NCBI RefSeq assembly: GCF_001418255.1
Contig: NZ_LIPV01000005.1
Coordinates: 62,001 to 126,000 of the forward strand
Direction: 5' to 3'
DNA from: Thiomonas bhubaneswarensis
Lineage (GTDB): Bacteria; Pseudomonadota; Gammaproteobacteria; Burkholderiales; Burkholderiaceae_C
Length of the DNA stretch: 64,000 nt
Shown: positions 46,003 through 62,046 of the stretch, piece after piece
Position numbering within the stretch: the stretch's first letter is position 1
How the letters are laid out: each line of letters starts with the position of its first letter
Translations under genes and position numbers: made by a program
Notes under the pieces: generated by a model
What the model was told of the DNA's origin: nothing
The model's input: only the letters and a program-made list of their open reading frames with translations
Database searches by the model: none

Positions 46003-47964
46003 TCAGTGAGCGAGCAGAGCATTCACCCGGCGCACATACGCCGCCGGATCGTCGAGCTGACCGCCTTCGGCGAGCAGCGCCTGATCAAACACCACCTGCG
46101 CCAGATCGTCGGCATGCGCCGCGTCGGCCACCACGCGCTTGATCAGCACATGCTCGGGGTTGATTTCAAGCACCGGTTTTGACGCGGGCATCTCGTCGCG
46201 TCCGGCCTGCTTGAGCAGGCGGGCCAGATGCGTGCTCATGCCGTCGTCGGTGGCAACCAGACAGGCCGGGGAATCGACCAGACGCTCGGAGATCCTCACG
46301 TCCTGCACACGTTCGCCCAGAGCCGCCTTGAAGCGCTCGATCAAGGCCTTGTGGTCTTCGGATTGGGCCGCCTCGTCCTTCTTCTCGGCCTCATCCTCGG
46401 CGCCCTTCACCTCGCTGAGGTCAACCGCGCCACGCGCCACCGATTGCAGCGGCTTGCCGTCGAATTCGTGGAGGAAGCCCAGCATCCATTCGTCCACCCG
46501 ATCCGTCAGCAGCAGCACTTCGATGCCCTTCTTGCGGAAGATTTCGAGCTGAGGGCTGGAGCGAGCGATCTTGGGCGTCTCGGCGGTGATGTAGTAGATG
46601 GCCTTTTGCCCCTCTTTCATGCGGCTGACGTAGTCGGCCAGAGACACATTCGGCGTGTCGCTCTCGCTGTGGGTCGAAACCGCGCGCAGCAGCTTGGCCA
46701 GGCGCTCGCGGTTGGCGAAGTCTTCGCCGAAGCCTTCCTTGAGCACCGCGCCGAACTCGCCCCAGAACGCGGCGTACTTGTCGCGCTCGGCCTGATCGTC
46801 GCTGCCCGCCATGTCTTCGAGCATGGACAGCACGCGCTTGACCGAGCCCTCGCGGATGGCGCGCACGTCACGGCTTTCCTGCAGCATTTCACGCGAGACG
46901 TTCAGCGGCAGATCGGCGCTGTCGATCACTCCGCGCACGAAGCGCAGGTAGGTGGGCATCAGGCTCTCGGCGTCGTCGGTGATGAACACGCGCTTCACAT
47001 ACAGCTTGACCCCGGCCTTCTGCTGCCTGTCCCACAGATCCATCGGCGCCTTGGCGGGGATGTAGAGCAACTGGGTGTATTCGCTGCGCCCTTCCACCCG
47101 GTTGTGCGTCCAGCGCAGCGGCGGGTTGCCGTCTCCGCTGAGCTGTTTGTAGAACTCGAGATACTGTTCCTCGGTGATGTCGGACTTGCTGCGCGTCCAC
47201 AGGGCTGCAGCGCTGTTGATCTGCTCCCATTCGTCGGTGGCGACGTATTTGCTCTGCTCGGCATCCCAGCGCTCCTTGCGCATTTCGATGGGCAGGGAGA
47301 TATGGTCGGAGTATTTGCCGATGAGGTCCTTGAGCGTCCAGACTCGCAGGTATTTGTCGATCTTGTCCTCGTGCGGGGTGTCGTCGGCGTCGGCGCGCAG
47401 ATGCAGGATGACGTCGGTGCCGCGCTTGGCCCGTGCGATCGTCTCCACGGTGAACTCGCCGGTGCCGTCCGACACCCAGCGCACGCCCTCGCCTTCGGCC
47501 ATGCCGGCCTTGCGCGATTCGACGGTGATGCGGTCGGCCACCATGAAGCCGGAGTAAAAACCCACGCCGAACTGGCCGATGAGCGCGGCGTCGGGCTTTT
47601 GCTTGTCGCCCAGCTTCTGCATGAACTCGCGCGTGCCCGATTTGGCAATCGTGCCCAGATGCTCGACGGCGTCTTCCAGGCTCATGCCGATGCCGTTGTC
47701 GCTGATGGTGAGGGTGCGCTGCTCGGGATCGACGGCGATGCGGATGCGCAGATCGGCGTCGCCCTCCATCAGCGCCGGATCGTCGATCGCCTGAAAGCGC
47801 AGCTTGTCGCAGGCGTCGGACGCGTTGGAAATCAGCTCGCGCAGAAAGATGTCGCGGTTGGAGTACAGCGAGTGGGTGACCAGGTGCAGCAACTGACGGA
47901 CTTCGGCCTGAAACGCATGCGTATGCGCCGCGGTCGGCGCTTGGGTGCTTTGTTCTGTGCTCAT
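46003..47964 (-). CDS. htpG: Chaperone HtpG (Hsp90)
   Basis: HtpG is the bacterial Hsp90, an ATP-driven homodimeric chaperone. The 653-residue protein has the N-terminal GHKL ATPase domain (Glu-Leu-Ile-Ser-Asn-Ala-Ser-Asp-Ala; Asp-Asn-Gly-Ile-Gly-Met; Gln-Phe-Gly-Val-Gly-Phe-Tyr-Ser). A middle domain (Arg-Val-Phe-Ile-Thr-Asp-Asp) and a C-terminal dimerisation domain follow. ATG at 47964 is the family start; the frame extends upstream across tatD but without homologous sequence. A sigma32-like promoter lies in front. It is convergent with the CbiB-like gene. Confidence 0.97.
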
Positions 47965-47999
47965 GGTGCCAAGAGTGGATGGAAAAAATCTGCGCCAGC

Positions 48000-48027
48000 A
48001 GTTGAGGCCTGGGCAAAAAAAATCAAG
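48000..48027 (-). promoter_or_regulatory. Candidate sigma32 promoter of htpG
   Basis: On the minus strand CTTGAT, 14 nt, then CCTCAACT lie 36 bp before the htpG ATG, overlapping the tatD stop. Spacing equals that of the grpE and dnaK boxes. The -35 differs from CTTGAA by one base and the -10 from CCCCATnT by three or so, so this is weaker. Confidence 0.5.
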
Positions 48028-48931
48028 AGCCGCCAACGCTCCGAGCCTGAGCAACGGCCAACACCGCGGCAAGCCGGGGCAGCGCGCGCAGGGCGTTGGC
48101 CGTGGTCTGCGCCGCGGTGTGCGGCAGCGTCCAGCCGCGCAACTCCGCGAGCGTCTGCGCGATGCGCGCCACTTGCTGCGGCGTGTTCGGCTCGGCGGGG
48201 ACGTCGGCATCCTGCTGCGCGGCACGCGGCCGGTAGAGCCAGACGGGCGGGATGTCGGGCGCATCGGTTTCGAGCACGGGCACCGTATCCGGCACGGTCG
48301 CGGCCAGACGGCGGATGTTGAGCGCGCGCTCGAAGGTCATGGCTCCGCCGAAACCCAGCGCGAACCCTAGGTCGATGAAACCCTGGGCCTGCTGCGCACT
48401 GCCGTTGAAGGCATGGGCGATACCGGCCGGACGACCGGCGGCAAAGCCGTGACGGCGCAACCCGGCGAGCAGCGCGTCCTGCGACTTGCGCACATGCAGG
48501 ATGACGGGCAGATCGAAGTCTCGGGCCAGACGCAGTTGCGCCGCATAGAAGTGCTGCTGGCGTTCGCGGTCCAGGCCGGGCACGAAAAAGTCCAGCCCGA
48601 TTTCGCCGATACCGACGAAATGCGGATCGTGCAGCGCCCGCTCCACGGTCTGCCGCAGCTCGTCGAGGTCAGTGTCCAGCGCACGACCGACATACAGCGG
48701 GTGGATGCCCAGCGCGTAAGCCCAGCCGCTGGCGCGCGCCAGGGTCTGCACGGTGGCGAAGTTGGCCTTCTCCACTGCCGGAATCACGCCGCAGGCCACG
48801 CCGACAAGGCGCGCGCGCTCTGCCGCCACTGCACCCCGTCCTTCGAATTCACCCGCGTCGAGATGCGCGTGGGTGTCCACCCAGATCGGCTCGAAGGGAG
48901 CGCTTGGCGCGGAACGAGGTATCAGAGACAT
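48023..48931 (-). CDS. TatD family metal-dependent hydrolase/DNase
   Basis: The 302-residue TIM-barrel protein starts with the metal motif Val-Asp-Thr-His-Ala-His-Leu-Asp. It then has Gly-Ile-His-Pro-Leu-Tyr, Gly-Glu-Ile-Gly-Leu-Asp-Phe and a late Glu-Thr-Asp-Ala-Pro-Asp. Members are 3'-5' exonucleases or deoxyribonucleases. The name YjjV/TatD cannot be refined by eye. It is divergent from pelA across 158 bp and directly upstream of htpG. Confidence 0.9.
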
Positions 48932-49089: not shown

Positions 49090-51984
49090 ATGCAACGCCG
49101 ACGCTTTCTTCAATCTCTCGCCCAGACCCGCCTGTTCTCCAACCCGCTGGGACGCCGAGGCCTGCTGGGCCTGGGCCTGCTCGCGGCGGGCAGCGGGCGT
49201 GCCATGGCGCAGACCGCCTGCACCTGCGGTGATTGTCCATCCTGTCTGCAAGGCACGGCCGCTGCCAGCCCGGCGGACGCGCCATCGGTGGCTTTTTACT
49301 ATGGCTCGCGCATTCCGGTGGACGACCTGCGGGCGTTCGACTGGGTGGTGCTGGAGCCACAGCACGCGCTGGCGCAAGACCCGAAGATCGTTTCCGCGCT
49401 CGGCCCCGACACCCTGGCGCTGGCTTATGTGTCGGTGGGCGAAGTCACGCCCGATCGCCCCTACTACGCCGACATGCCCAAGGCTTGGCTGCCCGCCTCG
49501 AATGCCGCCTGGGGCTCGAGGGTGGTCGACCAGACGGCCGCCGGCTGGCCCGCATTTCTGCGCGAACGCATCGTCAAACCGCTGTGGGATGCGGGCTTTC
49601 GCGCGTTTTTCCTCGACACCCTCGACTCCTACCAACTGCTCGCCAAAACGCCCGCCCAGCGCCAGCAGCAGGCCCAGGCGCTCACCGAAACCCTGCGCGG
49701 GCTGGTGGCTGCTTTTCCCGGCATCCGGCTGATGCTCAACCGCGGCTTCGAGCTGGTGGATGCCACGCTGGCGCCCAGCATCGTGGCGGTCGCCGCCGAG
49801 TCGCTCTACCGCGGCTGGAATCAGGGCGATTCGTCCTTTGTAGAGGTCGCCGCAGCCGACCGGGAATGGCTGCTGGCACGCTTTGCCGAGATGCGCGGGC
49901 AGTTCAAGCTGCCCGGCATCGCCATCGATTACTGCGCGCCGAAGGATCGCGCGCTGGCGCGGCAGACCGCGCAAAAAATCGCCGCGCATGGGCTCATTCC
50001 CTGGGTGGCCGATCCACAACTCGAAAGCCTGGGCGTGGGCAGTGTGGAACTGGTGCCAAGGCGTGTGCTGCTTCTGCACTCCTGCGAACAAGGCGACAGC
50101 CCCGAACTGCAATTACAGAGCGCGCATCTGTACGGCGCCATGCCGCTGGAATACCTCGGCCTGGTGCCCGAATACCGCTTCGTGGGAGCACCCGCCATCA
50201 CCGAGCCGCTGGCCGGGCGCTATGCGGCCATCGTGCTCTACCCCGACGACGGCAAGGTGTCCGGCGAGGTGCGGACCATGCTCAGACGGGCGCAGGCCGA
50301 AGGCGTACCCGTGGCGATCCTGGGCTACACCGACTTCGACGTGCTGGCCGAACTGGGCGCGATGGTCGGCGAGGGCCAGCTTGCCGCACCGATCGCGGTG
50401 CAGCGCCAGCCGGGCACGCCCAATGGCGAGGTCATTCCGCTGATCACCGCACAGAACTCGGTTCCGCTGGCCGCTGGTCCAGGCGCTCAGGTCTGGCTGC
50501 GAGCCACCGGCGCCGACGGTCAGGTGATGGACGGCGCCGCCATCACGCCCTGGGGTGGGTATGCGCTGGGATCGTTTGGCGTCTTCAACCTCCCCGGCAA
50601 CACCGGCACCCGCTGGTCGGTGGAGCCGATCGCCTTTTTCCGTGCGGCGCTGCGCGTGGGGCAAGACCCCATGCCCGATATCACCACCCGCACCGGACGC
50701 CGGGTGTTTTTTGTGCATTTCGACGGCGACGGCTGGCCCAACGCCTGCGACCGGCCTGGCTCGCCGCTGGCCTGCGAAGTGCTGGTGAGCGAATTCCTCG
50801 AAAAGTACAAGGTGCCCACGCTGGCCTCGGTCATCATCGGCGAGATCAGCCACGAAGGGCTGTACCCCAAGACCGCCGACACCAGCCAGAAATGGGCCAA
50901 ACGCATGTATGCCCTGCCCTGGATCGAAGTCGGTAGCCACACCTGGAGCCATCCCTTCAACTGGGTCGAGGCCAGCAAGACGCACAGCCTGGGTACGCCG
51001 AGCAAGGCCTACCCCTACGGTTTTTACCTGCCCCTGCCCAACTACACCTTCAGCACCCGCAGCAATGTCATCGGCGCGGCGGAGTACATCGACGACAAGC
51101 TCTGCCCGCCGGGCAAGAAGTGCAACATGATTCTGTGGCCGGGTGACTGCAATCCGCCCAACGAGGCTGTGGCCATGGCCTACGAGTACGGCCTTGGCAA
51201 CATCAATGGCGGGGGCGCGCCGATCAGCAAGACCCGGCCCACGCTGTCGGACATCTGGCCAATGGGCATTCCCAAGGGCAAGTATTTCCAAGTCTATGCG
51301 CCGTGCTCGAACGAGGAGGATTACACGCACAATTGGACCGGCCCCTACTTCGGTTTCGAGCGCGTGATCGAGAGCTATCAGATGACCGATACTCCCCGCC
51401 GCTTCAAGCCCATCGACGTTTACTACCACCCCTACATCGTGACCAAGGCCGCTGGCGCCAAGAGTCTGCACACCGTCTATCAATGGGTTCTCAAGCAACC
51501 GACCCACGCCATCTACGGCCATCAATACTTCCGCAGTGTCAACGACTGGCGGCGGGCCACGGTGGCCAGGCGGCTGGCCGGAGGCTGGCGGTTGCGCGGC
51601 GGCGCCGAGTTGCGACAGTGGTGCCAGCCGATGGGAGCCACCCCGCCGCAACTGGCGCAGTGCCAGCACGTCGTCGGCTGGAACACGCATGGCGAGCAGC
51701 GCTACATCCACGTCAGCACCGGGCAGGCGGTGCTGCTGACCGGCACCGAAGGCGCGGCCGCGCCGCGGCTGGTCGAGGCCAACGCCGATGTCCGGCGCTG
51801 GGAGATGCAGACCGACGGCAGCGTGCGGATCGAACTGCAGGGGCATCTGCCCGTCGAGGCGGAGTTCCAGCTTCCCGCCGGGTGGACGGCGCAGACGGCA
51901 GCCGCCCAACAGGACAAAACCGACAAAGGGTTGCGCGTGCGCGCCAGCACCACCGCGCTTGCCCTCACGCTGCGCCGGGCCTGA
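49090..51984 (+). CDS. pelA: Pel polysaccharide hydrolase/deacetylase PelA
   Basis: PelA is the periplasmic enzyme that cuts and deacetylates the Pel polymer (galactosamine-rich). The 964-residue protein starts with a Tat-like signal (Arg-Arg-Arg-Phe-Leu-Gln at 3-8; hydrophobic core about 23-36; cleavage after Ala-Met-Ala40). A cysteine cluster follows: Cys44, Cys46, Cys49, Cys52. A GH114/GH166-type hydrolase domain covers about 60-300 (Phe-Leu-Asp-Thr-Leu-Asp and Glu237 in Ala-Ala-Glu-Ser-Leu-Tyr). A CE18-type deacetylase domain begins around 540 with His-Phe-Asp545-Gly-Asp547-Gly-Trp and the metal pair His617-x3-His621. It opens the pel operon. Confidence 0.93.
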   Translation: MQRRRFLQSLAQTRLFSNPLGRRGLLGLGLLAAGSGRAMAQTACTCGDCPSCLQGTAAASPADAPSVAFYYGSRIPVDDLRAFDWVVLEPQHALAQDPKIVSALGPDTLALAYVSVGEVTPDRPYYADMPKAWLPASNAAWGSRVVDQTAAGWPAFLRERIVKPLWDAGFRAFFLDTLDSYQLLAKTPAQRQQQAQALTETLRGLVAAFPGIRLMLNRGFELVDATLAPSIVAVAAESLYRGWNQGDSSFVEVAAADREWLLARFAEMRGQFKLPGIAIDYCAPKDRALARQTAQKIAAHGLIPWVADPQLESLGVGSVELVPRRVLLLHSCEQGDSPELQLQSAHLYGAMPLEYLGLVPEYRFVGAPAITEPLAGRYAAIVLYPDDGKVSGEVRTMLRRAQAEGVPVAILGYTDFDVLAELGAMVGEGQLAAPIAVQRQPGTPNGEVIPLITAQNSVPLAAGPGAQVWLRATGADGQVMDGAAITPWGGYALGSFGVFNLPGNTGTRWSVEPIAFFRAALRVGQDPMPDITTRTGRRVFFVHFDGDGWPNACDRPGSPLACEVLVSEFLEKYKVPTLASVIIGEISHEGLYPKTADTSQKWAKRMYALPWIEVGSHTWSHPFNWVEASKTHSLGTPSKAYPYGFYLPLPNYTFSTRSNVIGAAEYIDDKLCPPGKKCNMILWPGDCNPPNEAVAMAYEYGLGNINGGGAPISKTRPTLSDIWPMGIPKGKYFQVYAPCSNEEDYTHNWTGPYFGFERVIESYQMTDTPRRFKPIDVYYHPYIVTKAAGAKSLHTVYQWVLKQPTHAIYGHQYFRSVNDWRRATVARRLAGGWRLRGGAELRQWCQPMGATPPQLAQCQHVVGWNTHGEQRYIHVSTGQAVLLTGTEGAAAPRLVEANADVRRWEMQTDGSVRIELQGHLPVEAEFQLPAGWTAQTAAAQQDKTDKGLRVRASTTALALTLRRA

Positions 51985-52000
51985 CCGACAATAGGCCCCA

Positions 52001-55000
52001 ATGCCGGACACCAAGCGCCTTGCCCCTCGCGACCCGCTGCACATCTCGCCCGATGACCCGCGGCGCAGCAGGTTGTTTCCGCGCGGCACGCTGCTGGGGT
52101 TGGGCCTGCTCTGTGTCGGTACGTTGGCGCTGGTCTACCCTGGGCAGCGGCTCATGCAGCTGCTGGCTTCGAGCCCCGACAACACCCTGGCCATCGATTA
52201 CCTGCGCCACCTGGTCGATCTGCGCGGCGGAGACATCGACCTGCGACTGATGCTGGCGCAACGCTACGAGAGAATCGGCCGTCAGCAGCAGGCGCTCGAC
52301 ACTCTGGGCAACCTGCAAAGCCCGCAGGCCGACGCACTGCGGCTGAAAATCTGGAAGACCCGCTGGTTCGACGCCCGCGCTCTGGGGCATCGCGCTGAAG
52401 AAGCGCAGGCCCGGCAGGCGCTCTCCGCCCTGCTTCAGCGCACCACGCCCACCCGCTTCACCGAGTGGCGCGACACCCTGCTGCTTCTGCAGGGCCTGGA
52501 CGAACCCAAGGCGGTGCAGCGTCTGGCGGCGATGGTCACCCATTTCCTGCCGCTGCCACCCGCGGCGGCCATGCAGGCCGCACAGTTGCTCGTAGGGCTG
52601 CACGCCGACGCGCTGGCGGCGCAGGTGCTGTTCGATACCGCCAAGACCCAGGTCACCGATGCCGAGCGCCAAACCCTGCTCCAGGCCGGGGCTCGGGCGC
52701 TGCTGGCCTCGGGGCAACCGAAGCTGGCCTACCAGCGCACCGCGGCGGCGATGCAAGGCTTGAAGCCCGCGCCGACGATGGCCTGGTTCATGGTGCAGCT
52801 GGCACTGGGCGCCAACCAGCCGCAGAACGCCGTGCTCTGGCTGCGGCAGGCCGTCGATCTCGATCAGCCCGCGCCACAGCTCGGCAGGGCACTCACCCCG
52901 GCACAGCGCGAACTGGCCTGGCAGGTCCTGCTGGCCGGTGGCGACCTGGCGGGCGCGGTGCGCATGGCCGACGCCGCGCTGGCCCAATCTCCCGACCGCG
53001 CCTGGGCCGAGCGCCGCGCGCAGGTGCTCGAATGGAGTGGCAAGCCCGACGCCGCGATGCAGCAATGGATCGCCTTGCTGCGTGCCCAGTTCAGCCAGCA
53101 CGCGCTCGATGAACTGCGTCGCCTTGCGCTGGCACTGCATTCCAGCAGCGGCATGGACGTCTACTGGGAGCAGCGCGCCGCGCGCGGCACCCTTCTTACT
53201 ACCGACGAATGGCTGCAATACGCCCAGGCGCTGGAAGTGCGCGGCCACCCGGAGCAGGCGGTGCGCATCCTGCGGCAGGCGTCGGCGAAAGAACCCGGAG
53301 TCCTGACCGCTCTGGCCTGGCTGCTGGGCAATATGGGCGAGGTCGAGGCGTCGCTCTCCACCTATGCACAGGCGCTGCAGCGTGGCTCGCTCGACCTGCG
53401 CGGCAGCATCGACTACGCCATCGCCCTGCTGCAAAGCGGCCAGTTCGCGCAGGCGCGGCAGGTGCTCGAAGCCACGCAGCGCCTGCCGGGCGCCGACGAT
53501 CTGCGCGCCACGCACCAGGGTCTACTGGGCGACATCGCCTGGGACATGGGCGAATCGCGCAGCGCCGAGGAGGCTTACGACAGCATCTGGCAAAGCCTCG
53601 CACTGCGCGACCGCATCAAGCCCTATCAGCTTCAGCGTCTCATCGCCCTGGTGCAGAAATCGCAGGGCGACGCCGCTGCGCTGCGCCTGCTGCCGCAGGC
53701 CTGGGCGCGCTCGCCCTCGGAGGCGCTGGGGCTGCTCTGGCTGCAGTCGCTGGTGCGCCAGCCCAGCCTGCAGGGCATCGACACCTGGCAGCGCATGGTG
53801 CTGGGCAGCGAAGCCGGGGCTCCGCTGCGCCATGATGCGCAGATGTATGCCGCACGTGCTCAGGTCTGGCGCGGGCTGGGCCGCACCGATCTGGCCCTGG
53901 CCGACCTGCGCGAGGCGCTGCGACTTGATCCACGCAACACCGACAACCAGATCGCCCTGCTGTGGATGCTGATCGACGCCAACCAGCTCGACGCCTTGCG
54001 GCAGGACATGGCGCTTTACAGCCGCAGCCTGACGGGCCTGCCCGAAGGGCTCGACGTGCTCAGCGCCGCGGCGCAGACGGTGGGCGATACCGCTGCCGCT
54101 TTGCGCTACAGCCAGCCGCTCTACCCGCGCAAGAAGTCCGATGCGCTGTGGCTGCTCAACTACGGCGATCTGCTGGCCCAGGCGGGCGACAGCCGTCGCG
54201 CCCGGGCCGCCTACGATCAGTCCTGGCGCCTGTTGCAGCGCCCGTCGGCCGCCGCACCTGCCGCAGCCAAGGGCGGCACCGACCGCACGCTTGACCCGCT
54301 GCTGGCACGACTGCGCCTGAGTCATGGTCGCCTCGACGGCGCAGGCCAGCAGGCGCTGCTGGCGCAGTTGCGCGACAAGCTGCACAGCGGCACGCTCAAC
54401 GCGCAGCAGACCCTGCAAGCCAATGCCGCCATCGCCGACTGGCTGCTGCGTCTGGACACCGACTCCGCGGCGCGCTGGTGGCTGGCGCGGCGCGTGCTCA
54501 CCCCGGCGGCGCGGCAGTCCATCGAGCTGCAGATGGCCCTGCGCGAAGGTGACCGCGAGACCGTCCGCCGCCTGCTGCAGCAAGGCGCTGCACGCCATCT
54601 GCTGCCACAAGACAGGGCTGAGGCCGAGCGCATCGCCGGTCATCCCATGCAATCGCTGGCCGAGGCCGAGCAAGTGCTGGAGCAAGCCGCCGAACGCGGC
54701 CAGGACAACCCGGCGCTGCAAGGCCTGGCAAGGCAGACCGCAGAGCAGCAGCTCGCGCTGGCGCATCGCGCCACACTCACAATGGAGCACCGACAAATCG
54801 ACAACGTGGTGCGCCAGGGACCGGTGCTGCGGCTGTCGCTGCAACTGAGCGGCCAGTGGCGGGTACAGGCGCAAGCCAGCCGACAGGCCATGCACAGCAA
54901 CAACACCGAGGCGCTGGTCGGCGTGCCCTCGACCTGGAATGACGCGCAGTTCGGCCTGCAGTGGCAGGGCGAGCGCTCGCGCCTGGGGGGCACCCTCTCG

Positions 55001-55678
55001 CACAACACCGCGGTGGGCAGCCTCAACGGCTGGCGCCTCGACGGCAGCACCCGCCTGCCCGGACAGATCGAGGCGCAGGTGCAGGCCGAATACCACGCGG
55101 TGGCCGATGAGTCCGGCCCGTTGCAGATCGCGGGCAGCCGCGACCGGCTGCAGCTGCGGCTGTCGCGCGATTTCGGCCGGGTCTGGGCGAACGTGAGCAC
55201 TGCGGTGATGTCGTATGACACCCGCCGCGGCAATCCGCTGGGGCATGGCACCAGCACCCAGTTCGAACTGGGTCTGTGGCTGCGCCGCCAGGAGCCCGAT
55301 CTCAGCGTCAAGCTGCTGGGCTATTCCAACCGGTTCAGCGCCAACGCCGGGCCACCACTGCCCGACTACGCGCCTCTGGTGCCGGGCGGTGGCGCGCCCA
55401 CCGCCGCGTTCTTCATGCCCGCCGGCGACGACGTCTTCGGCCTGGGGCTGGGTTTCAACATGGCGCACGGCGACACCTACACCCGGCGCTGGCTGCCCTA
55501 TGCCGAGGTCGATGTGCTGCAATCACGCCGGTTGGGGCTGACCAACAACCTGAATCTGGGCATCCACGGGCCGCTGTTCGGGCCCGATGAACTGTCCTTC
55601 AGTTACCAGCGCCAACAGAACACCTCGGGCCTGAACCGGCAGTGGAATCTGCAATACCGTTTATGGTTCGGTCGATGA
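52001..55678 (+). CDS. pelB: Pel export porin and TPR scaffold PelB
   Basis: PelB is 1225 residues (about 1190 in Pseudomonas aeruginosa). It has one N-terminal inner-membrane helix (about 27-50), a very long periplasmic array of TPR-like helix pairs (about 60-930), and a C-terminal outer-membrane beta-barrel of about 290 residues. The barrel part alternates polar and hydrophobic residues with Leu-Arg-Leu-Ser-Leu-Gln-Leu and Leu-Gln-Leu-Arg-Leu-Ser-Arg patterns. The TPR part guides the polymer and recruits PelA; the barrel is the exit channel. It starts 16 bp after pelA. Confidence 0.93.
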   Translation: MPDTKRLAPRDPLHISPDDPRRSRLFPRGTLLGLGLLCVGTLALVYPGQRLMQLLASSPDNTLAIDYLRHLVDLRGGDIDLRLMLAQRYERIGRQQQALDTLGNLQSPQADALRLKIWKTRWFDARALGHRAEEAQARQALSALLQRTTPTRFTEWRDTLLLLQGLDEPKAVQRLAAMVTHFLPLPPAAAMQAAQLLVGLHADALAAQVLFDTAKTQVTDAERQTLLQAGARALLASGQPKLAYQRTAAAMQGLKPAPTMAWFMVQLALGANQPQNAVLWLRQAVDLDQPAPQLGRALTPAQRELAWQVLLAGGDLAGAVRMADAALAQSPDRAWAERRAQVLEWSGKPDAAMQQWIALLRAQFSQHALDELRRLALALHSSSGMDVYWEQRAARGTLLTTDEWLQYAQALEVRGHPEQAVRILRQASAKEPGVLTALAWLLGNMGEVEASLSTYAQALQRGSLDLRGSIDYAIALLQSGQFAQARQVLEATQRLPGADDLRATHQGLLGDIAWDMGESRSAEEAYDSIWQSLALRDRIKPYQLQRLIALVQKSQGDAAALRLLPQAWARSPSEALGLLWLQSLVRQPSLQGIDTWQRMVLGSEAGAPLRHDAQMYAARAQVWRGLGRTDLALADLREALRLDPRNTDNQIALLWMLIDANQLDALRQDMALYSRSLTGLPEGLDVLSAAAQTVGDTAAALRYSQPLYPRKKSDALWLLNYGDLLAQAGDSRRARAAYDQSWRLLQRPSAAAPAAAKGGTDRTLDPLLARLRLSHGRLDGAGQQALLAQLRDKLHSGTLNAQQTLQANAAIADWLLRLDTDSAARWWLARRVLTPAARQSIELQMALREGDRETVRRLLQQGAARHLLPQDRAEAERIAGHPMQSLAEAEQVLEQAAERGQDNPALQGLARQTAEQQLALAHRATLTMEHRQIDNVVRQGPVLRLSLQLSGQWRVQAQASRQAMHSNNTEALVGVPSTWNDAQFGLQWQGERSRLGGTLSHNTAVGSLNGWRLDGSTRLPGQIEAQVQAEYHAVADESGPLQIAGSRDRLQLRLSRDFGRVWANVSTAVMSYDTRRGNPLGHGTSTQFELGLWLRRQEPDLSVKLLGYSNRFSANAGPPLPDYAPLVPGGGAPTAAFFMPAGDDVFGLGLGFNMAHGDTYTRRWLPYAEVDVLQSRRLGLTNNLNLGIHGPLFGPDELSFSYQRQQNTSGLNRQWNLQYRLWFGR

Positions 55679-55715
55679 CCGCGTTCTTGTCACCCTGATG
55701 AAGCAGGAGAGTTCC

Positions 55716-56282
55716 ATGACCCCATCCTCCCCCACTCGCCGCGTCTTGCTCGGCATCGCTGGTTCCGCGGCCGTGCTGCTTGCCGGTTGCGCCGTCACCG
55801 CGCTGCCCGGACAGTCGCTCACCGTGCCCGCCGACGCCAAGTTCGCGGTGCTTCCCCTGAGCAATGCCACCGACGTGCCGCTGGTCGAGCGCCGGGCACA
55901 GGCGATCACGGTGTCGCTGCTGCAGCAAAAAGGGCTGCGCAATGTGCTGGTCTATCCGCAAAAGAGCGGCGACAACCCGCTGGAGGCCGAACCCGTGGTG
56001 AACCCGGCGCAGGCTCTGGCCTGGGCCAGGCAGCAGGGCGCACGCTACGCGTTGTCGGGCACAGTCACCGAATGGCGCTACAAGACCGGGGTGGACAGCG
56101 AGCCCGCCGTGGGCATCACCCTGCAGGTGACCGACTTACCCACCGGCGAGGTGGTCTGGAGCGCCAGCGGCGGACGGTCGGGCTGGGGCTATCAGGCGCT
56201 GGCCGCCGTGGGGCAGTCGCAGATCGAAGCCTTGCTGCGCGGCATCCGCTTGACGGCAGCCCAACCCACCGCGGCAAAGTGA
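55716..56282 (+). CDS. pelC: Pel outer-membrane lipoprotein PelC
   Basis: The 188-residue protein has a lipoprotein signal with lipobox Leu-Leu-Ala-Gly-Cys25. The mature domain (Val-Leu-Pro-Leu-Ser-Asn-Ala-Thr-Asp, then Ala-Leu-Ser-Gly-Thr-Val-Thr-Glu-Trp-Arg-Tyr-Lys) matches PelC, which forms a dodecameric funnel under the PelB barrel. ATG at 55716 is chosen because AGGAGA lies 5 nt upstream; an ATG six codons earlier (55698) is in frame but lacks a ribosome-binding site. It sits 37 bp after pelB. Confidence 0.92.
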   Translation: MTPSSPTRRVLLGIAGSAAVLLAGCAVTALPGQSLTVPADAKFAVLPLSNATDVPLVERRAQAITVSLLQQKGLRNVLVYPQKSGDNPLEAEPVVNPAQALAWARQQGARYALSGTVTEWRYKTGVDSEPAVGITLQVTDLPTGEVVWSASGGRSGWGYQALAAVGQSQIEALLRGIRLTAAQPTAAK

Positions 56283-56310: not shown

Positions 56311-57801
56311 ATGAAACTCGACAAACTCTCCACCCGCGTCACCCGCCGCATGCGCAGCGAATCGGCGCTCATGCGCTGGCGCTGGCTGCGCTACTGGCGA
56401 CCCAACACGCAGTCGGGGCGGCTGGTCGCCATGGTCGAGAGCGTGCTGCTGCCGGTGCTGGTGCTGTGGCTCGGACATCTGCTGCGCCCGCTCGACCCGC
56501 TAGGCGCGCATGCCGGATTTCCCTGGTCCTGGTTCGGCCCGTGGCTGATCGCGGTGCGCTACGGCGCGGGCTACGGCCTGTTCGGCGTGGCGTTCTACGC
56601 CGCCTTCTGGAAGTTTTCGCCGATGCTGCTCGGCTCGGCTGCGAACAGCGCATTTCCGGCCGAGTTCTTTCTCGGCGGCATGCTGATGACGCTGATCCTG
56701 GGCGAGTTCGGCGCGGCCTTCCGCAACCGTCAGGTGCTGCACCGCGAAGTGACCAAAGACCTGACCGCGCGGCTGGAGCGCACCAAGCGGCGTCTGTTCG
56801 TCGTCAAGGAGGCGCTGTCCACGCTGGAACAGGAGCTGACCGACCGCCCCATGACCCTGCGCGACGCCCTGCTCGACCTGCGCCGCACCTTCGCCTTTCA
56901 GGGCAATCGCGCCGCGCTGCCCGCCCCTGCCACCACGCCGGGCCTGCCTGCGGCTGCGCCGCTGCCCGATCCGCGCGCCTTCCTGCAACTGCTCAGCCAG
57001 TCGTGCCGGCTAGTGGAAGCCGGCATCTTCGTGCGCGAGATCAGCCCGCAGGGCCTGCAATGGCGGCTGGCGGCTTCGCTCGGCCAGGCGCTGCCGGCGC
57101 TCGACGTCGACGATGTGCTGATCAACCGCGTGCTGGAATCGCACCAGTCGGTACATATCGCCCAGGCTGCGCTCAACACCTCCGAGACCAACCCCTGGGT
57201 ATTCGCCGCCCCATTGCGGCTCGACGAATACGACGAAGTCGATGCCCTGCTGGCGGTGCACGACATGCCCTTCATGGCGTTCGAGGAAAACAATCTGCAA
57301 CGCCTGCAGGTGCTGTGCGCCTCCTACCTCGACTTCAGCCAGCTCGAACTCACGGTCGAGGATGTGCGCTCGGCCTGGGTGCAGGCGCCCATCAGCCTGC
57401 AGCAGGAATGGGCCCAGCTCAGCGAGCTTGGGCAGCGCTTCAAGTTGCGCAGCTATTGCGCCGTCTGGAGCGGACAGGGCCGCGTCAGTGACGATGTGCT
57501 GGCCGAGTTCGCCGGCATGCAGCCGGTGGAGAGTTCCACCTGGACGCTCAAGGGACGCGGCGGCAAACCGGCGCTGGTGGTGCTGCTGCCGCTGCTTAGC
57601 GCCGCCGGGCTGGCCAACTACCGACGCGACATGATCACGCAACTCGGGCAGATTCTCGGCCGCAGCAATCAGCGCCCCGATCAGGCCTTCGATCTCGACT
57701 TTCTCGAGGTTGCAGGGCCGGGCGGCTTCCTGGAACTCAAGCGCCTGCTCAGCAGCGCCGCACCGGCGCCAGGCGCGGCAGCCGAATCGGGCAAGGCATG
57801 A
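56311..57801 (+). CDS. pelD: Cyclic-di-GMP receptor PelD
   Basis: PelD is the inner-membrane regulatory subunit of the Pel synthase. The 496-residue protein has four N-terminal helices (about 45-150), a helical linker, a GAF domain (about 220-350) and a degenerate GGDEF domain (about 360-475) with no GGDEF catalytic motif. An inhibitory-site motif Arg391-Val-Ser-Asp394 (RxxD) is in the place where P. aeruginosa PelD binds cyclic-di-GMP. The Pel machine should therefore be switched on by cyclic-di-GMP. Its stop overlaps the pelE start (ATGA). Confidence 0.92.
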   Translation: MKLDKLSTRVTRRMRSESALMRWRWLRYWRPNTQSGRLVAMVESVLLPVLVLWLGHLLRPLDPLGAHAGFPWSWFGPWLIAVRYGAGYGLFGVAFYAAFWKFSPMLLGSAANSAFPAEFFLGGMLMTLILGEFGAAFRNRQVLHREVTKDLTARLERTKRRLFVVKEALSTLEQELTDRPMTLRDALLDLRRTFAFQGNRAALPAPATTPGLPAAAPLPDPRAFLQLLSQSCRLVEAGIFVREISPQGLQWRLAASLGQALPALDVDDVLINRVLESHQSVHIAQAALNTSETNPWVFAAPLRLDEYDEVDALLAVHDMPFMAFEENNLQRLQVLCASYLDFSQLELTVEDVRSAWVQAPISLQQEWAQLSELGQRFKLRSYCAVWSGQGRVSDDVLAEFAGMQPVESSTWTLKGRGGKPALVVLLPLLSAAGLANYRRDMITQLGQILGRSNQRPDQAFDLDFLEVAGPGGFLELKRLLSSAAPAPGAAAESGKA

Positions 57802-58946
57802 ACCCGCTGTTCTACAAGCTCGGTTCGGTCATCGTCCTGCTGGAGACCGCGGCGGCCTGGCTGCTGGTCAGCCGTGACGATGTCGACCTCATGGCGTTCT
57901 GGCTGGTGCATGGCGCGGCTGCGGTACTGGTCGGCCTGCTGCTGTGGACGCTGCTGCCCGCCGATCTGCGCCGCCCGCGTCGGCTGTCGCTGAGCCTGCT
58001 TACCCTGCTGGCGCTGTTCTTCCCCATCGTCGGCGTCTTCGGTCTGCTGATCGCCGCGCGGCTGGCGCAGTGGCTGCCGCAACGGCACAAAGCTACTGAC
58101 CACTTGCGCGAGGCGCCGCAACTGCAGGTGTTCTCCGTATCGCACCTCGACGACGACCAGCGCCGCGATCTGCCTGCCGGGCAGACCGCGCGCATCGCGC
58201 GCGACCAGAGCCAGCCCCAGGCACAGCGCATCCGCGCGGTGCTGGCACTGCGCGAGATGTCTCCGCGCATGACGCTGCCGGTGCTGCGACGCCTGCTTTC
58301 CGACCCTGACGAAGAAATCCGCCTGCTCGCCTACGGCATCAGCAATACCTGGGAGCAGCGCCTGACCGACAGCCTGCAGGACGCGCAGCGCGAACTGGAG
58401 ATCCATCGCCACGGCAGCAGCGGCCCGGCACTGGCGCGCGCGGCACAGCGGGTGGCCGAACTGCAGATGGAGTTCATTTATCAGGGTCTGGCGCAGGGTG
58501 ATCTGCGCGATTTCGCGCTGCAGCAGGCTCTGCACTACTGCGGCATGGCGCGTGACGCCCTGCCACAAGACACCGGCCTGCAGATGATGTACCTGCGGCT
58601 GTCCTTGGCCGCGGGCAAGACCGAAGACGCACGCCGCGTGCTCGAACGCCTCGCGGCGGAAGGCGCCAGCGCCACCCTGTGGCGTCCCTATGCCGCCGAG
58701 CTGGAGTGGACCCTGCGCCATTTCAACCGCATCTCAGCCACGCTGGCCCCGCTGGGCACGCGCCAGGTGGCACCGCGCCTGCGTCCCGTCGTGCGCGTGT
58801 GGCAGACGCTGACCGAGCCTCAGGCCGCCCCCCTGACCATCGGCGATGCCCCGGCCGTGCGTCGGCCAGGCGATACGGCCCCCAGACCGGCCAAAGGCTC
58901 TGAGCCGTCAGTCCCAGGTGCCGACGACGCATTGCTGCTGAGTTGA
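57798..58946 (+). CDS. pelE: Pel synthase membrane/TPR subunit PelE
   Basis: The 382-residue protein has two to three N-terminal membrane helices (about 8-25, 32-50 and 60-90) and a cytoplasmic helical repeat region (Ala-Val-Leu-Ala-Leu-Arg-Glu-Met, then a TPR-like Met-Met-Tyr-Leu-Arg-Leu-Ser-Leu-Ala-Ala-Gly-Lys-Thr-Glu-Asp-Ala). PelE joins PelD, PelF and PelG in the synthase complex. The tail (about 340-382) is Pro/Ala-rich. The ATG overlaps the pelD stop, showing coupling. Confidence 0.9.
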   Translation: MNPLFYKLGSVIVLLETAAAWLLVSRDDVDLMAFWLVHGAAAVLVGLLLWTLLPADLRRPRRLSLSLLTLLALFFPIVGVFGLLIAARLAQWLPQRHKATDHLREAPQLQVFSVSHLDDDQRRDLPAGQTARIARDQSQPQAQRIRAVLALREMSPRMTLPVLRRLLSDPDEEIRLLAYGISNTWEQRLTDSLQDAQRELEIHRHGSSGPALARAAQRVAELQMEFIYQGLAQGDLRDFALQQALHYCGMARDALPQDTGLQMMYLRLSLAAGKTEDARRVLERLAAEGASATLWRPYAAELEWTLRHFNRISATLAPLGTRQVAPRLRPVVRVWQTLTEPQAAPLTIGDAPAVRRPGDTAPRPAKGSEPSVPGADDALLLS

Positions 58947-58968
58947 ACCCCCGGTGAATCGAGCCCCC

Positions 58969-60675
58969 ATGTCCCGACCCGACTTTTCCGACACCCAGCC
59001 ACAGCCGCACGAGGCCGACGCCGACATCGACGTCATGCTGCTGCTCGAGGGCACCTACCCCTATGTCTCGGGCGGGGTGTCGAGCTGGGTGCACCAGATC
59101 GTCAGTGGCTTTCCGCACCTGCGGTTTCATCTGGTGTTCCTCGGTTCGCGCGAAGAAGATTACGGCAAGCAGCGCTACCAGTTGCCGCCCAATGTGGCCG
59201 GGCTCACCCACCACTATTTGTTCAGCGATGCCGTGCTGCCCGCAGCGCATGAAGAACGCGGAGACGCCCAGACGGCCCAGCTCGTGGAGCAACTGCACGA
59301 GCTGATCCGCGAAGGCAACGACCGCGACAGCCGCGCCGAGGTGCTTCGCGCCAGCCTGGAGGCCATGCAGGACAAGCTCGACCTGGATTACTTCCTGCAC
59401 TCGCACCAGTCGTGGGCTTACCTCACTGCCCAGTATCAACTGCGCTGCACCGACCCGTCCTTCGTCGATTACTTCTGGACGGTGCGCACCATGCACACCC
59501 CCATCTGGACCCTGGCCACGCTGGCGCGCAAGCTGCCCCGGGCCAAGGTCTATCACACCGTGTCCACCGGCTATGCCGGGTATCTGGGCGCGGTGCTGGC
59601 GCGGCTGCACGACAAGCCGCTGATCCTGTCGGAGCACGGTATCTACACCAAGGAGCGGCGCATCGACCTGTTCTCGGCCAACTGGATCAGCGACAACACC
59701 CCGGTGCTCGAACGCACCGCGGGCGACGCCGGCTACTTCCGTCAGCTCTGGATCCGGCTGTTCGAGTCGCTCGGTCGCATGTGCTACGACGCCGCCGACC
59801 CGGTGATCGCGCTTTACGAAACCAACCGCCTGCGGCAGATCGCCGACGGCGCCAATCCGGTCACCACCTGCTGCATCGCCAACGGCATCAACGTGCCGCC
59901 GTTTGCCGCCACCCGCGCGCAGCGTCCGGCGCAGCCGCCGCTGGTGATGTGCCTGATCGGCCGCGTCGTGCCGATCAAGGACATCAAGACCTTCATCCGC
60001 GCCGTGCGCGTGGCGAGCAACCGCCTGCCCGGTCTCGAAGGCTGGATCGCCGGCCCCGAGGACGAACACCCCGAATACGCCCGCGAATGCCGGGAACTCG
60101 CCGCAAGCCTGCAACTGGGCGATACGCTCAAATTCCTCGGCTTCCAGCGCCTGACTGAACTGATGCCCAAGGTCGGCCTGGTCGTGCTGTCGTCCATCAG
60201 CGAGGCGCTGCCGCTGGTCATTCTCGAAGGCTATGCCGGCGGCGTGCCCTCGGTGACCACCGACGTGGGCTCGTGCCGCCAGCTTATCTACGGCCTGGGC
60301 GCGGAAGACGAAGCGCTGGGCGCCTCCGGCGACGTCGTCGGCATCGCCGACGCGCAGGCGCTGGGCGAGGCCTGCGCCGAGCTGCTGGGCGACACCGAAC
60401 GCTGGCAGGCCGCCAGCCAGGCAGGCATCGCCCGCGTGGAGCGCTATTACACCCAGCCCATGATGTTCGACAACTACCGAGCCGTCTACGACGACGCCCT
60501 GCAGCGCAGCGCTGCCCGCGCCGCGGGCTTTCACGATTCGGTCGGCGCCGTGGCCACCTGGCTGCGCGGCGAACCGCCCCTTGATGAACCCGCCGCTGCC
60601 GCCGAGCCGCCTCAAGGCGGCGGCAGCCCCCCCGGGGGGCAGAGAGGGCAAAGCCCGAACGTGGGGGCCAACTAG
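58969..60675 (+). CDS. pelF: Pel glycosyltransferase PelF
   Basis: PelF is a cytosolic GT4-family transferase that polymerises the Pel sugar from UDP donors. The start motif Leu-Leu-Leu-Glu-Gly-Thr-Tyr-Pro-Tyr-Val-Ser-Gly-Gly-Val-Ser-Ser-Trp and the donor-site Glu-x7-Glu (Glu-Ala-Leu-Pro-Leu-Val-Ile-Leu-Glu-Gly-Tyr-Ala) are present. ATG at 58969 gives 568 residues; a GTG at 58954 adds five. The C-terminal 30 or so residues are Pro/Gly-rich and encoded by strongly palindromic DNA, unlike the rest. It ends two bases before pelG. Confidence 0.93.
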   Translation: MSRPDFSDTQPQPHEADADIDVMLLLEGTYPYVSGGVSSWVHQIVSGFPHLRFHLVFLGSREEDYGKQRYQLPPNVAGLTHHYLFSDAVLPAAHEERGDAQTAQLVEQLHELIREGNDRDSRAEVLRASLEAMQDKLDLDYFLHSHQSWAYLTAQYQLRCTDPSFVDYFWTVRTMHTPIWTLATLARKLPRAKVYHTVSTGYAGYLGAVLARLHDKPLILSEHGIYTKERRIDLFSANWISDNTPVLERTAGDAGYFRQLWIRLFESLGRMCYDAADPVIALYETNRLRQIADGANPVTTCCIANGINVPPFAATRAQRPAQPPLVMCLIGRVVPIKDIKTFIRAVRVASNRLPGLEGWIAGPEDEHPEYARECRELAASLQLGDTLKFLGFQRLTELMPKVGLVVLSSISEALPLVILEGYAGGVPSVTTDVGSCRQLIYGLGAEDEALGASGDVVGIADAQALGEACAELLGDTERWQAASQAGIARVERYYTQPMMFDNYRAVYDDALQRSAARAAGFHDSVGAVATWLRGEPPLDEPAAAAEPPQGGGSPPGGQRGQSPNVGAN

Positions 60676-62046
60676 ATGGCCGGCATCGGCTTCGAGCTGC
60701 GCAAGCTGCTTCGCACCGAGTCCTATCTCGGGCTGCTGCGCGCTTACACCTACGCCTCGATCATCAGCTCCGGGCCGTGGGTGTTTTCCATCATCGGTCT
60801 CATCGCGGTGGGCGTGCTGTCGCTCGGCGTGGTCACGCCCGATGCGCTCATCACCCAGTTCCAGGTGACGGTGACCTATCTCATCATGGCCTCGCTCATC
60901 CTCACCGGCGGGTTGCAGCTGGGCTTCACCCGCTGGGTGGCCGACCGCTTGTTCGAGAAGCGCAAGGACGACATCGCCCCGGCCTATTTCGGCGTGGTGC
61001 TCGTCACCACCGCGGTCAGCGGCGGGCTGGGCTGGCTCACCGCACTGCTGGGCTTTCATGGCGTGAGCAATCTGTACCGCGTGCTCATCGTCGCCGGATT
61101 CACGCTGCTGTCCAATCTCTGGATCACCACGGTGTTCCTCTCGGGGCTGAAGCAGTACCGGGCCATCGTCGGGCTGTATGCGCTGGGTTATGGCATCTCG
61201 GTGCTGCTGTCCTACCTCTTCCGTCCCTGGGGACTGGAGGGACTGCTGCTGGGCTTTCTCGGCGGGCAGTTCATCATGTGGGTGCTGATGCTCTGGCTGG
61301 TGCTGCGCAACTTCCCCGTGGTGCGCCCCATCAGTCTGGCGTGCTTTCATCACAGGCAGATGTATCTCTCGCTGATTGCCGGCGGGGTGCTCTACAACCT
61401 GGGCGTATGGGCCGACAAGCTCACCTTCTGGTTCACCATGGGCACGTCCTCCCCAGTGATCGGGCCGCTGCGCGCTTCGACCATCTATGACCTGCCGGTG
61501 TTTCTCGCCTATCTGTGCGTCATCCCGGGCATGGGCATCTTTCTGGTGAAGTTCGAGACCGACTTCGTCGAGTGGTACGACAAGTTCTACACCGCCGTGC
61601 GCGAAGGCGGAGCGCTGCAGGACATCGCCCGCTATCACGACGGCATGCAGGGCGTGGTGCGTGAAGGGCTCTACCAGATCCTGAAGGTGCAGGCGCTGAC
61701 GCTTCTGGCGGTCTACACCTTCGTGCCCTCGTTGTTTGCATGGATCGGCATCAGCAGTCTCTACATCCCGCTGTTCCTGGTGCAGGCCGTGGCGGCGAGC
61801 TTCCAGGTGATGCTGCTGGCCGTGCTCAACGTGTTCTATTACCTTGACCGCAGGCGCGACGTGGTCGTCATCACCGCCACGCTCACCGTGCTGAACTTCG
61901 CGCTGAGCATGCTCTCCATCCACCTCGGCCCGGCCTTCTTCGGCTATGGCTTCGGCGTGGCCCTGCTCATCACGCTGATGCTGGGCATGGGGCTGCTGCA
62001 ACGCCTGTTTCGCAAGCTCGAATACCAGACCTTCATGCTGCAGTAG
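60676..62046 (+). CDS. pelG: Pel polysaccharide flippase-like membrane protein PelG
   Basis: The 456-residue protein has about 12 membrane helices and resembles Wzx/MATE exporters. The start Phe-Glu-Leu-Arg-Lys-Leu-Leu and the loop Trp-Ala-Asp-Lys-Leu-Thr-Phe-Trp are PelG hallmarks. It acts with PelD-E-F to carry the polymer across the inner membrane. It is the last pel gene. No terminator is seen in the 73-bp gap before the VOC gene. Confidence 0.93.
   Translation: MAGIGFELRKLLRTESYLGLLRAYTYASIISSGPWVFSIIGLIAVGVLSLGVVTPDALITQFQVTVTYLIMASLILTGGLQLGFTRWVADRLFEKRKDDIAPAYFGVVLVTTAVSGGLGWLTALLGFHGVSNLYRVLIVAGFTLLSNLWITTVFLSGLKQYRAIVGLYALGYGISVLLSYLFRPWGLEGLLLGFLGGQFIMWVLMLWLVLRNFPVVRPISLACFHHRQMYLSLIAGGVLYNLGVWADKLTFWFTMGTSSPVIGPLRASTIYDLPVFLAYLCVIPGMGIFLVKFETDFVEWYDKFYTAVREGGALQDIARYHDGMQGVVREGLYQILKVQALTLLAVYTFVPSLFAWIGISSLYIPLFLVQAVAASFQVMLLAVLNVFYYLDRRRDVVVITATLTVLNFALSMLSIHLGPAFFGYGFGVALLITLMLGMGLLQRLFRKLEYQTFMLQ

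Follow-up and report, generated by a model that had tools for sequence, protein, structure and literature searches.

The window, a stretch of 64,000 nucleotides from Thiomonas bhubaneswarensis (contig NZ_LIPV01000005.1), carries the pelABCDEFG genes in that order (Table 1). The enzyme PelA trims Pel, a biofilm sugar. The pelA translation, which opens MQRRRFLQSLAQTRLFSNPLGRRGLLGLGLLAAGSGRAMAQTACTCGDCPSCLQG with MQRRRFLQ as its first residues, was tested for membership of the class that joins a GH114/GH166-like hydrolase to a CE21 deacetylase. A phmmer search matched it to Pseudomonas thermotolerans PelA (9cgy; E 6e-144, residues 65–940) and to the Pseudomonas aeruginosa hydrolase domain (5tcb; 5e-43), and Pfam placed a GH114 domain at residues 77–311. 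E237, D545, D547, H617 and H621 are invariant in a 38-row PelA alignment; both active sites are intact, and the catalytic glutamate, the deacetylase base and metal triad, and the pel operon context are all in place. Domain order, fold, catalytic glutamate, metal triad and operon position are the same as in the two Pseudomonas proteins. The pel cluster of this genome is complete, with PelB, PelF and PelG recognized by profile and PelC, PelD and PelE by position and anatomy. In the same region, an HtpG-like ORF of 753 amino acids (46003–48264, minus strand) shares about 240 bases with a TatD-like nuclease ORF (48023–48931, minus strand), and because of this overlap its true start is probably internal.

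Table 1. Features of pelA and its operon in the window (residue numbers refer to PelA).
Feature	Positions	Strand	Basis or remark
pelA	49090..51984	+	964 aa; Pel hydrolase/deacetylase; first gene of pelABCDEFG
Twin-arginine motif RRRFLQ	49096..49113	+	residues 3-8; all 31 Tat-type PelA have RR-x-F-L
Second Arg-Arg	49153..49158	+	residues 22-23, directly 5' of hydrophobic core; not invariant
Low-hydrophobicity h-region	49159..49197	+	residues 24-36, GLLGLGLLAAGSG
c-region and putative leader-peptidase site R-AMA/Q	49198..49212	+	residues 37-41; A40-Q41 invariant
Cysteine cluster C44-x-C46-G-x-C49-P-x-C52	49219..49245	+	translation, conservation
Variable linker	49246..49281	+	residues 53-64; indels between species
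Glycoside hydrolase domain	49282..50049	+	~residues 65-320; E237, invariant, aligned to the catalytic E218 of P. aeruginosa
Deacetylase metal/base residues D545, D547, H617, H621	50722..50952	+	correspond to PaPelA D528, D530, H600, H604; all invariant
pelB	52001..55678	+	PF24604 PelB C-terminal barrel, 212 bits
pelC (lipoprotein)	55698..56282	+	position, lipobox LLAGC, LpoB-like match
pelD	56311..57801	+	position; weak GAF match, below cut-off
pelE	57798..58946	+	position, operon order
pelF	58954..60675	+	NF038011, 741 bits
pelG	60676..62046	+	PF16933, 496 bits

The initial annotation had pointed to RRRFLQ, to a second arginine pair ahead of a hydrophobic stretch, and to cysteines at residues 44, 46, 49 and 52, and the translation has each of them exactly there. 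The two arginine pairs fared differently in relatives: the first is invariant, but the second is not, reading RK in L002, RP in L012 and TRA in L025. Residue 37 (position -4) is lysine or arginine in 9/11 cluster-bearing Thiomonas PelA; charge in the c-region was read at this aligned residue, the first AxA often falling inside the core. Between the first arginine pair and the hydrophobic core, Thiomonas PelA has a conserved stretch of 15–18 residues; the pair lies about 20 residues ahead of the core, which is unusual for Tat. Within Thiomonas, residues 1–23 (49090–49158) are conserved to the same degree as the catalytic domains, with 15 of the 23 invariant and synonymous changes present; this is unusually high conservation for the n-region of a signal.

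The survey of N-termini took in 112 PelA, drawn from the genus, its family, its order and its class. A start in which RR-x-F-L comes within a few residues of the ATG was found in 31 of them, all belonging to one clade made up of Thiomonas (13/13) and three related genera, namely, g26 (L029), g129 (L030 and L031), and the sister genus g33, where every sequence whose N-terminus is intact has it. This start is absent from the other 81, whose N-termini look Sec-like. The best 12-residue Kyte–Doolittle mean is 1.45 in the 31 Tat-type sequences versus 2.39 in the 81 others (p ~1e-14, with rows that are not phylogenetically independent); Thiomonas cores, at ~1.5–1.9, overlap the low end of the Sec-type range. 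In the same survey, one genome (G816; L101, L103 and L104) was seen to carry a second, diverged full-length PelA together with further PelA fragments, and five genomes of one genus of the order (G532, G602, G660, G743 and G769) have a stand-alone GH114-like ORF beside a diverged PelA, the two lying on one contig some 10–13 kb apart in three of these genomes.

A Tat signal serves the export of proteins that are already folded. Recognized features of such signals are a lower hydrophobicity, an SRRxFLK motif, and basic residues in the c-region (PMC5539426), and PelA is alike in its RR-x-F-L, its low hydrophobicity and its basic c-region residue. The sister genera, with textbook signals such as IPRRLFLKG and HRRDFLRQW, also match the usual layout, whereas Thiomonas PelA departs from it by the conserved stretch between the arginines and the core. 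The genome has adjacent tatA, tatB and tatC genes (TatC at 220 bits, with tatA and tatB ORFs assigned upstream of it by reading), and PelA thus combines an n-region motif, a less hydrophobic h-region, and a basic c-region residue (common in Tat substrates but not required) with the presence of the translocase genes. By contrast, the signal of P. thermotolerans PelA, residues 1–22, is predicted to be of the Sec type and is followed by no cysteine tail (PMC12022489). A genome-wide study of Tat substrates in P. aeruginosa does not name PelA in its main text (PMC6085387), and our literature search found no report of a Tat-dependent PelA. The Tat-like character first proposed for this signal is upheld by the motif, the lower hydrophobicity and conservation throughout the clade, and the most likely explanation of these sequences is that one clade of Burkholderiales has exchanged Sec for Tat as the export route of PelA. 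Separately, PelC (55698–56282) has a twin arginine preceding its lipoprotein core (TRRVLLGIAGSAAVLLAGC); (T/A)RR is found in 9/9 Thiomonas PelC sampled and is missing from the PelC of three g33 genomes among those sampled. The PelC signal may be that of a lipoprotein exported by Tat, but its core is quite hydrophobic.

The expectation that the cysteines would be conserved in close relatives was borne out by the N-terminal alignment, where the cluster is found in 11 of 13 Thiomonas and one relative outside the genus. From PelA's own cysteine content, a C-x-C-x2-C-x2-C pattern is expected by chance at about 4e-5. Searched at the DNA level, C-x-C-G-x-C-P-x-C occurs once per genome, always in pelA, in the 11 Thiomonas genomes that carry it; no second copy was found in any of them, and the reversed pattern gave zero matches in the Thiomonas genomes. 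With a single copy per genome, the motif was rejected as an export tag of general use in Thiomonas. The 11 cluster-bearing Thiomonas proteins are 77–97% identical in pairwise comparison, and only A40, Q41, C44, C46, G47, C49, P50 and C52 are invariant among their residues 32–64: each x position within the cluster takes three to four residues, linker residues 53–64 all vary, and the spacing is fixed despite flanking indels. All four cysteine codons are found as both TGC and TGT. Synonymous codon variation with the residues kept shows selection on the protein motif and not chance; chance or a sequencing artefact was rejected, since 11 independent genomes carry the motif with synonymous changes.

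Two Thiomonas have lost the cluster while keeping the Tat signal, L012 leaving a CNGPDC remnant after a three-residue deletion and L013 leaving ACCGNSPDA. In the sister genus g33, L025 has CNCGDCPSC, and the other PelA of that genus are without the cluster. The presence of the cluster takes three changes to explain on a tree that leaves out the N-terminus. One early gain with several losses would fit the remnants, and a separate second gain in L025 is possible. Transfer of a Thiomonas N-terminus into L025 is unlikely, as its signal resembles that of its own genus, with which it also groups on that tree. The cluster is dispensable, because it is missing from two Thiomonas and from most g33 relatives. 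The motif matched no known family of metal sites, structure and curated-sequence searches returned no significant solved or curated relative, and no paper turned up in a literature search on the motif string. Among similar patterns, a nine-residue C-x-C-G-x-C-P match to a viral V protein, in the region that binds zinc (PDB 9ujo), has an E of 4, is not significant, and is not homologous.

An AlphaFold2 model built from the 38 aligned PelA has a mean pLDDT of 90 and a target-normalized TM-score of 0.90 against 9cgy. Both enzyme domains are modeled as in known PelA, with confidence from about residue 64 onward, whereas residues 12–61 score below 50 and are predicted to be disordered; the cluster would therefore lie on a tail that is not part of the folded enzyme. 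A small knuckle ordered by metal would escape the model, because AlphaFold2 leaves metals out. In the deacetylase domain (50746–51153), C553, C562, C672, C678 and C687 are conserved in the Tat-clade PelA, and most Sec-type PelA are without them.

On balance, we lean toward a Tat-exported two-enzyme PelA in one clade, to which Thiomonas and one relative would have added a metal-binding thiolate tail. PelA would fold in the cytoplasm and be led through TatABC by its RR-x-F-L signal, and leader peptidase would cut behind AxA, after residue 40. Mature PelA would then start Q-T-A-C-x-C-G-x-C-P-x-C, on a mobile tether of ~25 residues before the hydrolase domain. It is plausible from the motif that the cysteines hold a metal, and a soft-metal thiolate site on the tether is the most likely role of the cluster; the four residues could bind a soft or borderline ion such as Zn, Cu, Cd or As(III), at an accessory site distinct from the deacetylase metal.

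The main rival accepts Tat export but has the four cysteines form disulfides without metal, stiffening the tail or crosslinking PelA in the periplasm, with partners among C44, C46, C49 and C52 themselves, in other molecules, or in the cysteine-rich deacetylase domain. The periplasm is oxidizing, so a CxC/CxxC set could indeed oxidize there; mature PelA has 14 cysteines, and C553, C672, C678 and C687 are likewise characteristic of the Tat clade and mostly missing elsewhere. Yet C-x-C would be a strained pair, the fixed glycine and proline of C-G-x-C-P-x-C look like those of metal knuckles, and PelB and PelC offer no conserved partner cysteine: mature PelC has only the one used for lipidation, and the PelB of the window has a single cysteine, inside a membrane helix. 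We therefore regard disulfides as a less probable, though serious, alternative. Export by Sec after all, with incidental arginines and GLLGLGLLAAGSG acting as a Sec h-region, draws on the prediction for P. thermotolerans PelA (PMC12022489), on the distance of the Thiomonas core from the first arginine pair, and on its hydrophobicity at the low end of Sec-type values; it seems unlikely given that RR-x-F-L is kept in 31/31 sequences though x and the flanks vary, and that the sister genera carry the textbook Tat signals cited above.

The initial annotation had also suggested that PelA uses Tat because it has to be folded around the metal cluster at its N-terminus by the time it is exported. Tat signal and cluster do occur together in 12 genomes, and no Sec-type PelA has the cluster, but 19/31 Tat-type PelA are without the full cluster, L012 and L013 kept the signal after losing it, and the tail is predicted to be disordered and outside the enzyme. 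The proposal is not sustained, and we consider it very improbable: with those 19 sequences, the cluster cannot explain the use of Tat in general, and, judged from the sequences, signal and cluster are separate traits. A more likely reason would be that the deacetylase folds and is loaded with metal in the cytoplasm before meeting an acidic or metal-rich periplasm. Least credible of all is a degenerate lipobox in which Cys44 is lipidated and tethers PelA to the inner or the outer membrane. Cys44 does follow soon after the core, and L012 has TAGC at that place, but none of the 12 cluster-bearing PelA fits [LVI][ASTVI][GAS]C, position -3 being Q, A, T, N or P and never L, V or I; in addition, the invariant AxA-Q site precedes the cysteine, and lipidation would need one cysteine where four are invariant.

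For this putatively Tat-exported PelA with its candidate metal-binding tail, one further likeness bears on which ion might be bound. The As(III) site of ArsR, Cys32-Cys34-Cys37, has the same C-x-C-x2-C spacing as C44-C46-C49 (PMC4287715), but ArsR, a cytoplasmic repressor whose site lies in a helix, is unrelated, and the likeness is one of spacing only. Thiomonas biofilms exposed to sub-inhibitory arsenite reportedly form more matrix and then disperse (PMC3158062). Because of this spacing and this biofilm response, an arsenite-sensing role is a lead, and just that: the tail could conceivably be a periplasmic sensor of arsenite or soft metals, in which As(III) or a similar ion at the cysteine site alters the position of PelA or its hydrolase or deacetylase activity, although by analogy of this kind we think it distinctly improbable. 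If true, metal exposure would change both the build-up and the release of the Pel matrix.

PelA has so far been treated as a Sec-exported periplasmic enzyme. The best reading of these genes is a clade of putatively Tat-exported PelA, to which one lineage has added a thiol tail, probably for soft metals. If the switch to Tat is real, PelA would fold, and its deacetylase perhaps acquire its metal, in the cytoplasm, which is plausibly an advantage where the water is acidic and rich in metals; the cysteine tail, for its part, may link the processing of the Pel matrix to metals in organisms that live in acid mine drainage.
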